Positions 1 through 6,266 of a stretch of 36,387 nt of DNA are shown here, in pieces. This DNA is from Nitrososphaeria archaeon. Lineage in GTDB: Archaea; Thermoproteota; Nitrososphaeria; Nitrososphaerales; Nitrosopumilaceae. Under the pieces are notes generated by a model. The model had not been told where the DNA came from, ran no database searches, and saw only the letters and a list, made by a program, of their open reading frames with translations. The position numbers were made by a program, and so were the translations under genes. The stretch is from positions 1 to 36,387 of the forward strand of contig RHCX01000006.1 in the NCBI GenBank assembly GCA_010028495.1. The letters run 5' to 3'. Position 1 is the stretch's first letter. The number at the start of each line of letters is the position of its first letter.

Positions 1-405
1 GAAAAACTTAGAAAAGAAATAATGAATGATAATTACAATGGTTGTTGTGTAGATCATGCGCATATTCATGCAGTTCCAGCACAAGTAAATGTCTCAAATG
101 AGCTAAAGAAGGAATTCAAATTCACTAAAATAAAAAAAGTTTCAGAATTAGCAAAAATTGGAAAAAATGGTAATTATCTGTACGTAGATGATATTTCTGG
201 TGATAAACTAGTCTTTGAAGCCAATAGCGTTAGATCACAACACATTAGGTATCTTATTGCAGAAGAGTTGAACGTTCCAGAAAAAGGTGATTGGTACATT
301 TATCCAGGTGAACAGGAAATAAATGCCACAATAAGAAAACTGTCAAAAGAAAAAATGAAAAAGTTTGAAGAGACAATGCTTGTTGTTGGCAAAGATGAAA
401 GATGA
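1..405 (+). CDS. HIT-family nucleotide hydrolase/transferase, 5'-truncated by window edge
   Basis: Frame is open from base 1 (EKLRKEI-MNDN...). Contains GCCVDHAHIHAVP, the HxHxH histidine-triad signature. The N-terminal HIT domain is outside the window. Confidence 0.75.
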   Translation, partial: EKLRKEIMNDNYNGCCVDHAHIHAVPAQVNVSNELKKEFKFTKIKKVSELAKIGKNGNYLYVDDISGDKLVFEANSVRSQHIRYLIAEELNVPEKGDWYIYPGEQEINATIRKLSKEKMKKFEETMLVVGKDER

Positions 406-1297
406 TAACATAAGTGATTTTCTCCCTCTCACTAATCTGACGGCGCAAGATTTCGATAAAACAATAGCAAAATTAGATGAATTCTGGAAAGCAAAAAGCA
501 TCGCTATCTTGGACAAACTTGGTTTTCATGTATTACCTGGAGCGGCCATTCTGGCTTGGAACGAAAAAATCAGTCTAAAACTACTTAATTATTGCAAAGA
601 AAATAATTGGACTTCAGTTACAATTCGAACAGATAAGGCAAAAGAAACAGGAGAAAACATACCTCGTGGCGGATATCAAGTTCAGATCAACAAATTAGAA
701 ACAGAGATCAAAAAACATCTCAGAAACGGTAGAATTGTTATAGTGCATGAACCAAGAGATCGTTACAAAAATCTTTACGGAATAAATGTGCTATATGATA
801 ACAAGATTCCTACTGAGCTCTATTTTGAAGTGGTAGGACATGGTTTTGAGGTAAGTAATCTTAACAGAGGAGATATTCAACCCCATGAAAAATTAGTAAT
901 AAGGAAAAAGAACGACGAATTTGTTATTTTAAAACGAGATATTATTTCAAATTCTGAATACAAAAATTCTGTCAATCTACGTTATCAACAAATTGGTATC
1001 TCGCTTATGGACCAAACTGTTGAATCTAGCATGTCGAAAAAGAATCTACAAAACTATGGCCGAGCTTTCTTGAAAAAACACGGATATGCTCTATTAAACA
1101 GCACATATGAAAAAATCCCGCTTAACTATATAAAACAAATTTCTCACTCTGTGATTAGATTACCATATAAAATGTCAAAATTGGGGATCACTATTGATCA
1201 ACTAGTTTTATCCATAACAGTTTTTGACTCGGAGCAATTAGTTTATTGGGATATGGTCTTACCAAAACACAAGTACGAAGGTATCAAAGTTGATTAG
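395..1297 (+). CDS. Conserved-looking protein of unknown function (301 aa from ATG 395); contains PRGGYQV...GRIVIVHEPRDRY..LYGINVLYD...YFEVVGHGFEVSNLNRGDIQPHE
   Basis: Long ORF in an overlapping operon; ATG at 395 overlaps the HIT stop at 405. The motif block looks like a conserved enzyme core, but I cannot assign a family with confidence. Confidence 0.7.
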   Translation: MKDDNISDFLPLTNLTAQDFDKTIAKLDEFWKAKSIAILDKLGFHVLPGAAILAWNEKISLKLLNYCKENNWTSVTIRTDKAKETGENIPRGGYQVQINKLETEIKKHLRNGRIVIVHEPRDRYKNLYGINVLYDNKIPTELYFEVVGHGFEVSNLNRGDIQPHEKLVIRKKNDEFVILKRDIISNSEYKNSVNLRYQQIGISLMDQTVESSMSKKNLQNYGRAFLKKHGYALLNSTYEKIPLNYIKQISHSVIRLPYKMSKLGITIDQLVLSITVFDSEQLVYWDMVLPKHKYEGIKVD

Positions 1298-2105
1298 TTA
1301 TAAGAAAATAGTACCACCTCTTGATGATACAGTAAGCAAAAGTTATGGTCTTTTTGATTGGCAAAGTTTCTTTTCAAATGTTTTCTATTCAAATAATCAA
1401 CGAATAAAACAAACAGGATATAATAACAACCAAGTAGCGTTTCTACGAGGATACGTAGTTTCACACATATCTCAAGATTTAGGTGACTTTGCTGAAGCAT
1501 TAAGAGAATCTGATAACGTAAAACTAAGAACAAAAACAGGCTCTATGTTTGCGTGGATATTTGCACTCGCAAATGAATTAGAAGAAGATTTAGAGGACAT
1601 AATTTACGATAAATATCCAGGGTTTTGTCCATACTGTGGTCATAAGTATCATTGTCAATGCGCGTGGTGGCTTCCATCTCAAATTAAGAAAGGTAAAGAT
1701 AGAATTCACACAAAACCAATTGAAGATAATGAAAGTCCTCACACAAAACCAAACCAACTTTCTGGCTGGATCACGACTTGGGAATTAATTTATGGAAAAA
1801 AATACAAAATTGCAATGACTGTTGCTGATATAATGTACAAACTTCTCGAAGAAGAGGCTGAAATTTTAGAGGAGCTTGATAAAGCTAAAGGAGGCCAATT
1901 GAATAGAGACGAACCATACTATAAAAAATTAACAAGAGAGGTAGCTGATTTTGTATCTTGGTATTTCGCATTACTCTACAAACTTCAGCAAGATCTTCCA
2001 CCGGATCAATTATCAAAAATACTATATGAAAAATTTAAGGATGGTTGTCCGTGGTGTAAAGAACAAATCTGCAAATGTTATCCGAAATGGCTTGAAGAAA
2101 GTTAG
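1290..2105 (+). CDS. Tandem MazG-like nucleotide pyrophosphohydrolase with two Cys clusters
   Basis: TTG start overlaps the previous stop. Two all-alpha NTP-PPase-like repeats (DLGDFAEALRE...FAWIFALANELEEDLEDIIYDKYPGFCPYCGHKYHCQC and EEEAEILEELDKA...EVADFVSWYFALLYKLQQDLPPDQLSKILYEKFKDGCPWCKEQICKC). Confidence 0.75.
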   Translation: MISYKKIVPPLDDTVSKSYGLFDWQSFFSNVFYSNNQRIKQTGYNNNQVAFLRGYVVSHISQDLGDFAEALRESDNVKLRTKTGSMFAWIFALANELEEDLEDIIYDKYPGFCPYCGHKYHCQCAWWLPSQIKKGKDRIHTKPIEDNESPHTKPNQLSGWITTWELIYGKKYKIAMTVADIMYKLLEEEAEILEELDKAKGGQLNRDEPYYKKLTREVADFVSWYFALLYKLQQDLPPDQLSKILYEKFKDGCPWCKEQICKCYPKWLEES

Positions 2106-2568
2106 AGGAAAACTGTATCTTCATAGATCTGCGATACAGGAATTAGATGAAAACTTACAATCACAATTTGAAGAAGCTTCTGTGTTACTTCCTAATGAAT
2201 TTGAATGGAATATACTTCGTTTTGATTTAAAATCATACCAAATCTCATTTTTAAAATATGCTGACTTTGAATCAGATCCGCATCCTAGTTTAATTGATTC
2301 AATTACGACGCATGTGGCGACAAGAAGAATAAAACATTGGTTTGCCTCATCAATCAATCCTCCAATATTACATAGAAAAGAAACTTTCATTATGAACAAT
2401 GATCCAAATTTCTATAGGTTTCATCGTTTAACACTACAAGAAGAAGAAGCTGGATTATTAGATCCAAGAATATCACACAAGATTGGTTTCAAAAAACAAT
2501 GGGAAGAATTACTAGAAAGTAAAAATCTTCAGATTATTAATCATCAGCTAGTGCCCCCTGTAAACTAA
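2092..2568 (+). CDS. Stand-alone protein matching the C-terminal region of DNA phosphorothioation-associated putative methyltransferases
   Basis: Motifs KLYLHRSAIQEL, SFLKYADFESDPHPSL, NPPILHRKETFI...FYRFHRLTLQEEEAGLLD recall the C-terminal half of the Dnd-associated methyltransferase family (TIGR04096-like). TTG at 2092 overlaps the MazG-like stop; the listed ORF start at 1951 is likely too early. Confidence 0.65.
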   Translation: MKKVRGKLYLHRSAIQELDENLQSQFEEASVLLPNEFEWNILRFDLKSYQISFLKYADFESDPHPSLIDSITTHVATRRIKHWFASSINPPILHRKETFIMNNDPNFYRFHRLTLQEEEAGLLDPRISHKIGFKKQWEELLESKNLQIINHQLVPPVN

Positions 2569-3101
2569 TGAATTTCTCTCATAAAACAGCCATTCATAGG
2601 AATAAACCATCATCTACAGTAAGAATGATCGAAAACTTAGGTTATATCAAAAATCAGGTATTTGACTTTGGTTGTGGTACAGGAAAGGATGTCAACTATC
2701 TGAAATCCAAGGGCTTTACTGTCGAGTGTTGGGATCCTTTCTATTTCAAGGAAAACGAACTATCTAACTTCAAATCTAACTCATTTCAAACTATTCTCTG
2801 CACATACGTTTTGAATGTAATTCATAAGAATGAAAGGATTGATGCTATCAAAAATATTAAAAAATTATTGCATAAAGAAGGAGTTGTATTTTTCACTGTG
2901 AGAACAACACAAGATATTCTAGATAAAGCCAAGAATAATTCTTGGAAAAAAAACCTTGACGGATGGATCACTCAAAAGAAAACCTTCCAAAAAGGATTTA
3001 CCTCCGAAGAGCTAGAATCACTAATACGTGATAATGGATTTAGGAATGTCAAAACAGTCTCAAAGAATCCGCTGATTGTACAAGCATCAGAAACTGAATG
3101 A
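2568..3101 (+). CDS. Class I SAM methyltransferase, N-terminal-type domain of Dnd-associated putative methyltransferase
   Basis: SHKTAIHRNKPSSTVRMIENLGYIKNQVFDFGCGTGKDVNYLKSKGFTVECWDPFY: the characteristic N-terminal tag plus SAM motif I (DFGCGTG). Start overlaps the upstream stop (TAATG). Confidence 0.75.
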   Translation: MNFSHKTAIHRNKPSSTVRMIENLGYIKNQVFDFGCGTGKDVNYLKSKGFTVECWDPFYFKENELSNFKSNSFQTILCTYVLNVIHKNERIDAIKNIKKLLHKEGVVFFTVRTTQDILDKAKNNSWKKNLDGWITQKKTFQKGFTSEELESLIRDNGFRNVKTVSKNPLIVQASETE

Positions 3102-3281
3102 TAATCTGTTGACAATGTAACTAAGTTCATAAATCCAACATGACATTATAATCGATCTTATTTTTATTAAATCAATTTTCCCTAGATACTCCTACACAAC
3201 GTTTAGTTCTCAATTCACTCAATGTAAAAATACTCTACTCATTATAATGAATTAAAAAATTGGGAGGGTTAGTTCCATACA

Positions 3282-3301
3282 TAGCCTAACGAATTAGGCT
3301 A
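3282..3301. repeat. Perfect 8-bp inverted repeat (TAGCCTAA-CGAA-TTAGGCTA)
   Basis: Read directly; competing TAGCCT copy downstream at 3315..3320. Confidence 0.8.
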
Positions 3302-3332
3302 ATATCGTTCAAACTAGCCTCTTGTACTGTAC

Positions 3333-3351
3333 ATGCGGCGAACCGCCGCAT
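3333..3351. repeat. Perfect 8-bp GC-rich inverted repeat (ATGCGGCG-AAC-CGCCGCAT)
   Basis: Read directly in an otherwise AT-rich intergenic region. Confidence 0.85.
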
Positions 3352-3381
3352 ACATTGAACTTTTTACCATAGTTCATAGAA

Positions 3382-3660
3382 TCAAAATGCCTCATCTCTA
3401 GAATCAGCTTCTTTCGTACGTTCCAGTTCTTTTTCTATAAACGCTAATCTTCTCTCAATCTCTTCAGCCTGTTCATCGTTTATCAATTCCCTACCAACAC
3501 TTATCGTATATGCTATAGTCCTAGCATATCTGATGCATTTTTCCATGTCTTGTTCCTTGTCAAATTCATCCGATAATTTTTTAATAATTCGGTGTAGTAT
3601 TCTGCCATACGAACCTCTTGATTTCCACCGTACGCTGCCTTTAGCACCTGATTCTGTCAT
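3382..3660 (-). CDS. Hypothetical charged alpha-helical protein (92 aa)
   Basis: ATG-initiated ORF with charged helical composition and no overlapping alternative; family not recognised. Confidence 0.55.
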   Translation of the reverse strand: MTESGAKGSVRWKSRGSYGRILHRIIKKLSDEFDKEQDMEKCIRYARTIAYTISVGRELINDEQAEEIERRLAFIEKELERTKEADSRDEAF

Positions 3661-3924
3661 GCTTTAGATGTGATTATGACATATTAGAGAACAATTATGC
3701 AATTCAAAAAAGATCTGTATCCATTTCCCAAGCAAACTGTACCTATTTTGTGCCTAATCCATGAGTAACCCCCCATATCTTGTAAAAATTACAATTTCCT
3801 ATCTGGTGCGTCCGTTTTGAACAACATATTTGATAATAATTCTGGAATCGTACATAATTCAGGTGTTTGAGGTTGTCGCCAACATACAACCATAGTTGAC
3901 CTTAAGCCTTGGATGCCTGTTTCT

Positions 3925-5511: not shown

Positions 5512-6266
5512 GCCAGCTTGAGAACATCAAGTACTTGATCAAAGCTTTCCTTAGTTCTGTTTTCCTTGTATGTTCGAAGAGAAGAAATGATTTTTTGTTT
5601 TGGTGGAAGCTTGTAAATTCTATTTACCATATTTGCAAGACCAGAGCCAATCAGCATTGCTTGAGATGCAGAGGTGACATTAGATGCTCTTCGTTCAAGG
5701 CTGGCGCTCTCAAAGTCGATCATAGTGATGTTTTTGCCCACGATAACATGCTTGGTTATATTGCTCAACTCCCCGTGGTCAATCCCTGCCTCGTCTAATT
5801 TGTAACAGTCAGTTAATACTTTTTTTATTACGAATTTTAGCTTGGCAGCGCTTCCCCTTCCTTTGAGCTCATCAACCCAGTCATAGATTTTCTTGCCACC
5901 GACAAACTCCATTACGACAAAGTTTTTGCTGCTGGAAATCAGCTTTGGTCCGACTCGCACTTTGTTTGCGGCTGATAACAATACAGTTTCTCCTTTCATA
6001 TCTTTTCTTGGAGAGTCGGTTCTGCGGATTTTTAGTGCAACTTTTTTTGTTCCCTGCTTTGCTAGTACAACAATGCCTGCATAGCCCTTGCCTAAAACAC
6101 AAATCTTGTTAATTGTCATTGGGCCTTCAAATGATACCCCATCGATACGAAGCTGTTTTAGTTCTTTGACTCTGGATTTTATCTGGGCTTTTGTGGCGTG
6201 CGGATAGCCAAGTATTGAAGAATATGGCTCGTTAGCTAGATCATTTACTGGAAAAAATTGTTTCAT
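5508..6266 (-). CDS. Archaeal predicted Ser/Thr protein kinase (COG2112-like)
   Basis: GKGYAGIVVLAKQGTKKVALKIRR, DHGELSNITKHVIV, MIDFESAS match the COG2112-type atypical kinase core. Confidence 0.8.
   Translation of the reverse strand: MKQFFPVNDLANEPYSSILGYPHATKAQIKSRVKELKQLRIDGVSFEGPMTINKICVLGKGYAGIVVLAKQGTKKVALKIRRTDSPRKDMKGETVLLSAANKVRVGPKLISSSKNFVVMEFVGGKKIYDWVDELKGRGSAAKLKFVIKKVLTDCYKLDEAGIDHGELSNITKHVIVGKNITMIDFESASLERRASNVTSASQAMLIGSGLANMVNRIYKLPPKQKIISSLRTYKENRTKESFDQVLDVLKLA

Follow-up and report, generated by a model that had tools for sequence, protein, structure and literature searches.

Prokaryotic ubiquitin-like (Ubl) operons of type 6e encode a polyUbl, an inactive E2/RWD protein and a JAB-E1 fusion, and were proposed to be mobile and to act in addiction or against invaders (Iyer et al. 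2006, PMC1779556). In type II CBASS, E1-E2 and JAB proteins are reported to modify the nucleotide cyclase reversibly (PMC10097602, PMC11153139), and in the Bil system the catalytic residue of BilB is Cys138 (PMC11354881). An island rebuilt from the draft genome of an ammonia-oxidising Nitrosopumilaceae archaeon resembles the type 6e operon in having a Multiubiquitin-family Ubl, an inactive E2-like protein and a JAB-E1 fusion in that order, in a mobile setting. It departs from that operon in that its Ubl has a single domain instead of two or three, the predicted metal-binding protein Y was not seen (downstream of JAB-E1 comes a short membrane ORF), a CARF regulator is divergently encoded, genes for a HIT protein, P2, a MazG-like protein, P4 and P5 follow, and the host is archaeal. 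With type II CBASS (Cap2/Cap3) and Bil it shares E1 and JAB functions combined in a mobile conflict-type locus; however, no CD-NTase ORF is present in the rebuilt island, and its E2 is without the catalytic cysteine that BilB has. The island looks like a new combination of known parts, probably antiviral.

The window analysed (36,387 nucleotides) is an entire contig, C149, of a draft genome of 1.63 Mb in 203 contigs, and the core genes in its right-hand part fit Nitrosopumilaceae. Its positions 1-3101 hold five plus-strand ORFs with an overlap at each junction: P1, the C-terminal half of a HIT protein (1-405, its 5' end open and cut by the contig end); P2, an orphan of 300 amino acids (395-1297, start ATG at 395); P3, tandem MazG-like (1290-2105, start TTG at 1290); P4, an N-terminal domain of Dnd-associated methyltransferases (2092-2568, start TTG at 2092); and P5, a class I SAM methyltransferase domain (2568-3101, start ATG at 2568, with a TAATG overlap with P4). 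The coordinates, starts and overlaps of these same-strand ORFs reproduce those given in an earlier note on this DNA, and the distinct, Lys/Asn/Ile-rich composition that it described was also recovered: GC is 33.0% for 1-3101 versus 40.3% for the remainder of the window, and Lys, Asn and Ile together make up 21-29% of each protein in the block. This AT-rich block is horizontally acquired. The five ORFs therefore stand as described, but not as the whole unit that the term five-gene cassette implied, since the window begins at a contig end and the block forms the 3' portion of a longer series of genes. Positions 3102-3770 make up the right-hand end of the inserted island and contain an ORF of 92 aa on the minus strand (3382-3660).

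An extension of the system upstream, suggested earlier, was found on two further contigs, C56 and C165, which carry the HIT N-terminus and the Ubl operon. A HIT search of the same genome placed the N-terminal half of the protein at the end of C56 (1434-1700), running off it. Joined in frame to P1, it raised the PF01230 score from 18.9 to 23.4 bits (E 9.5e-5) and the DcpS_C score from 26.4 to 32.8 bits, giving a protein with HxHxH in a HIT fold and bearing out the HIT assignment. The joined protein aligns across the C56/C149 junction to plasmid HIT proteins (E 6e-13, 1e-9 and 5e-8) and to phrog_23000 (E 2.9e-12), and these alignments indicate that approximately 15-20 residues are missing there. 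C56 (1,700 bp) starts inside the JAB-E1 gene and continues through the short membrane ORF to the HIT half-gene. The N-terminal part of JAB-E1 is encoded by the end of C165; its residues 2-50 are 55% identical to fusions of this kind, and C56 resumes at residue 71. The protein, in which JAB is fused to E1, is 55-57% identical to full-length fusions; its JAB domain has an intact JAMM motif (HTHP-x7-S-x2-D) and its E1 domain the GxGGxG nucleotide-binding motif. Preceding it on C165 are a Ubl gene (PF14452, Multiubiquitin, E 2.9e-10; 5620-5841) with a single domain that ends ...VPYG, an E2-like gene (PF14462, E 5.7e-25) with no conserved or catalytic Cys in eight aligned sequences, and a divergent CARF/winged-helix regulator of the HFX_2341/DUF6293 type. 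No overlap of contig ends was found at the C56/C149 or C165/C56 join. The Ubl-E2-JAB/E1 core with a divergent CARF-like gene is also present in three other Nitrosopumilaceae (G236, G226 and G129), and in at least one case, G226 (L077), the gene that follows the core carries a TIR domain.

Together, C165, C56 and C149 appear to rebuild one island of approximately 7.6 kb directly 3' of tRNA-Pro(GGG). This reconstruction is drawn from nine same-genus genomes, in which the C165 gene run with tRNA-Pro(GGG) joins directly the window's 317-aa gene or its neighbour, so that the tRNA-Pro flank lies beside the window's core genes; in a tenth relative, tRNA-Pro adjoins the right flank. The 150-bp spacer between tRNA-Pro and the 317-aa gene, host sequence that directly follows the tRNA in relatives (the right edge of the empty site), was recovered at window 3771-3922, 74-80% identical to that of G003, G025 and G627, and the right island boundary falls at window ~3770. 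The island accordingly extends over C165 4342-6384, C56 and window 1-~3770, with ~7.5 kb assembled. At each contig join a gap of ~50 bp (~15-20 codons) is unassembled, which counts against the reconstruction; synteny lends independent support to the proposed chain, in which the links of C56 rest on two split genes. The rebuilt order is [tRNA-Pro], an 81-aa ORF (minus strand), CARF/winged-helix DUF6293 (minus strand), Ubl, inactive E2, JAB-E1 fusion, small membrane ORF, HIT, P2, tandem MazG, P4, P5, the 92-aa ORF (minus strand) and [core genes], and this full gene set was found in one genome only. No integrase was seen in the island, and no tRNA 3'-end direct repeat (att-like) was found in the window. 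At the same tRNA-Pro site, G025 (L104 11859-13030) and G627 (L107 962-2096) hold other DNA of ~1.1-1.2 kb, with transposase-like and membrane-protease-like ORFs by eye; because this DNA is also foreign-looking, the site is regarded as a variable spot.

HIT and MazG proteins are widespread nucleotide hydrolases. P1 carries an intact HIT triad, HxHxH, as DHAHIH (window ~52-69), plus a C-terminal extension. On Caulobacter plasmid NZ_CP048816.1 a relative of the island HIT adjoins a PRA-PH/MazG-type protein of 815 amino acids and an annotated methyltransferase, and in Parabacteroides (NZ_OY725790.1) another adjoins ThyX, an AAA-type ATPase and dihydrofolate reductase. P2 is not similar to the Caulobacter 815-aa protein, belongs to no family in Pfam, NCBIfam, PADLOC or PHROGs, and has no relative in the PDB, in 301 class-level and 300 phylum-level genomes, or in plasmids or phages. 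Scans for close relatives of P2, P3 and P4 in viral contigs, and of P2 in genome contigs as well, found none. A single-sequence fold of P2, made with no alignment, was unusable (pLDDT 38); by eye the protein may be ATP-grasp-like, a lead only.

Alignment of P3 agreed with its earlier description as a tandem MazG, showing two MazG-like repeats that each close in a CPxC...CxC zinc motif. The ExxE...ExxD metal site of MazG pyrophosphohydrolases is found in repeat 2 only, which retains EEAE/EVAD, repeat 1 being without the ExxE/ExxD ligands. P3 itself gave no Pfam MazG match, and a P63C match (E 0.0027) was taken as chance. Single-domain archaeal MazG-like proteins share with P3 the ExxE...ExxD helices and the zinc motif, and P3-matching proteins of this type with a CPxC...CxC tail occur in 140 of 400 phylum genomes; P3, in contrast, is duplicated and its first repeat is stripped of metal ligands. 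In a distant relative (G352, contig C17) a gene for a class I SAM methyltransferase overlaps a second tandem MazG gene, whose product does score as Pfam MazG.

P4 and P5 match different parts of the NCBIfam model TIGR04096 (E 4.9e-27 and 7.5e-26; 94.8 and 90.9 bits), as the earlier idea of a split Dnd-type methyltransferase would have it, although each scores below the family cut-off of 150 bits and no one protein exceeds it. The domain order of the family, N-terminal then SAM, is kept, as two genes rather than one and with no Dnd or Ssp genes nearby. P4 is 36-40% identical to the N-terminal domain of full-length relatives and P5 29-32% identical to their SAM domain. A permuted order was considered and rejected, since the model begins past the N-terminal domain and P4 also matches the C-terminal repeat of that domain. 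The C-terminal half of a full-length TIGR04096-type protein is absent from the window; a Pseudanabaena protein has a second P4-type domain at its C-terminus. Motif I of P5 is FDFGCGTG, of the class I SAM methyltransferases, but no DNA-methyltransferase motif [SDN]PP[FYW] was seen in it and no DndC-like gene in the genome, and the DNA-modification reading first placed on the block was not upheld. P4 and P5 lie in different frames, and each frame has stops near their junction; one wrong base within 2541-2566 could still mimic the split, but overlaps of the TAATG kind are typical of coupled genes.

Across 80 genome loci with a P4 domain, P4 and P5 are fused in one ORF in 75, and HIT, P2, MazG or E2 lies beside the domain in none. 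Among 300 phylum genomes the P4 domain was found in this genome only. In the tree, which has low resolution, P4 falls within the bacterial sequences and its branch is long, which makes a bacterial origin of the domain likely. An AlphaFold model of P4 from 48 sequences (pLDDT 91.6, pTM 0.83) gave 409 weak Foldseek matches in the PDB, none meaningful (best E 0.44, TM below 0.3), and with nothing below that E value the predicted fold seems to have no solved counterpart visible to the search.

Because the type 6e arrangement is accompanied by a cassette in the place of a TIR-domain follower, it appears fairly probable that this is a mobile conflict (antiviral-type) island, with a type-6e-like Ubl core and a nucleotide-chemistry accessory or effector module, and the context suggests an anti-phage role. 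The CARF regulator would control expression of the island, E1 would adenylate the Ubl, JAB would remove it, and the HIT-P2-MazG-P4/P5 cassette would serve as the accessory or effector module. The activities of MazG and HIT proteins are established chemistry of those families, and by that chemistry the intact MazG repeat 2 would hydrolyse (d)NTPs and HIT would hydrolyse or transfer a nucleotidyl group; a P4/P5 complex may methylate a substrate. The preferred mechanism is that Ubl tagging would switch the cassette, modelled on Cap2/Cap3 acting on the type II CBASS cyclase. A version in which Ubl conjugation in this ammonia-oxidising archaeon would directly control a nucleotide-chemistry effector of HIT, orphan, half-dead MazG and trans-split Dnd-type methyltransferase, a Ubl-switched immunity not described before, is put forward tentatively and is rather unlikely.

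Counting against a single system, ~88 bp separate the membrane ORF from the HIT gene and contain an inverted repeat, so that the cassette may be a separate transcript. The repeat, GGTCTGGGTCAACTATAGTTGATCCAGATC at C56 ~1350-1380, could be a terminator or an operator. It is quite possible, if somewhat doubtful, that the tRNA-Pro island holds two independent modules, one being a type-6e Ubl operon and the other a HIT/P2/MazG/methyltransferase cassette driven from its own promoter. The intergenic repeat is consistent with this, as are the absence of the cassette from every other Ubl locus seen (HIT, P2, MazG, P4 or P5 adjoins none of the close JAB-E1 relatives) and the Caulobacter plasmid neighbourhood of HIT, PRA-PH and methyltransferase genes, where the annotated stretch contains no Ubl gene. 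However, the cassette is adjacent to the Ubl operon on the same strand and takes the position that TIR-domain or other variable genes have behind JAB-E1 in relatives.

That the block is the remnant of a Dnd/Ssp phosphorothioation island, with only the methyltransferase left, is very improbable. The family does have Dnd or Ssp core genes close by at 43 of the 80 P4-domain loci (30 of the 47 with full flanks), and in another Nitrosopumilaceae genome, G074, a decayed copy persists next to DndC/DUF4007-type genes. In this genome, by contrast, P4 and P5 are open, ordered and with overlapping start codons, not decayed; the rebuilt island contains no Dnd gene, in agreement with the earlier note, and no DndC/SspD PAPS-reductase with DndD/E or SspB/C, so that Dnd genes would need to lie inside ~100 unassembled bases. 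The classical Dnd operon once considered possible just upstream is replaced there by Ubl, inactive E2 and JAB-E1 genes, not Dnd/Ssp. No credible DndC is present elsewhere, as a search of the genome with PF01507 (PAPS-reductase, DndC/SspD) returned one PP-loop protein barely over the cut-off, on an unrelated 1.5-kb contig, and its CxxC-rich tail suggests the tRNA-thiolation type. A housekeeping nucleotide-metabolism operon, to which the wide distribution of HIT and MazG might point, is scarcely tenable given its absence from relatives, whose site is empty, and the low GC, tRNA insertion, orphan P2 and Ubl neighbours.

If the conflict-island interpretation is correct, prokaryotic Ubl machinery would be linked to nucleotide metabolism and to a family of Dnd-associated methyltransferases that was never characterised, and this in archaea of the marine type, about whose antiviral systems little is known. 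Free-standing P4 is an isolated version of a domain that has no PDB fold match and no assigned function even in Dnd systems, and with P4 and P5 being separate proteins the two domains could be tested individually. In G074 the phosphorothioation-type island (contig C14, 1-20000) encodes DUF4007, a 1130-aa ATPase, PAPS reductase and cysteine desulfurase, along with PLD, helicase and GHKL-type genes, and the decayed TIGR04096 fragment at 394-783 of that contig contains six stops.
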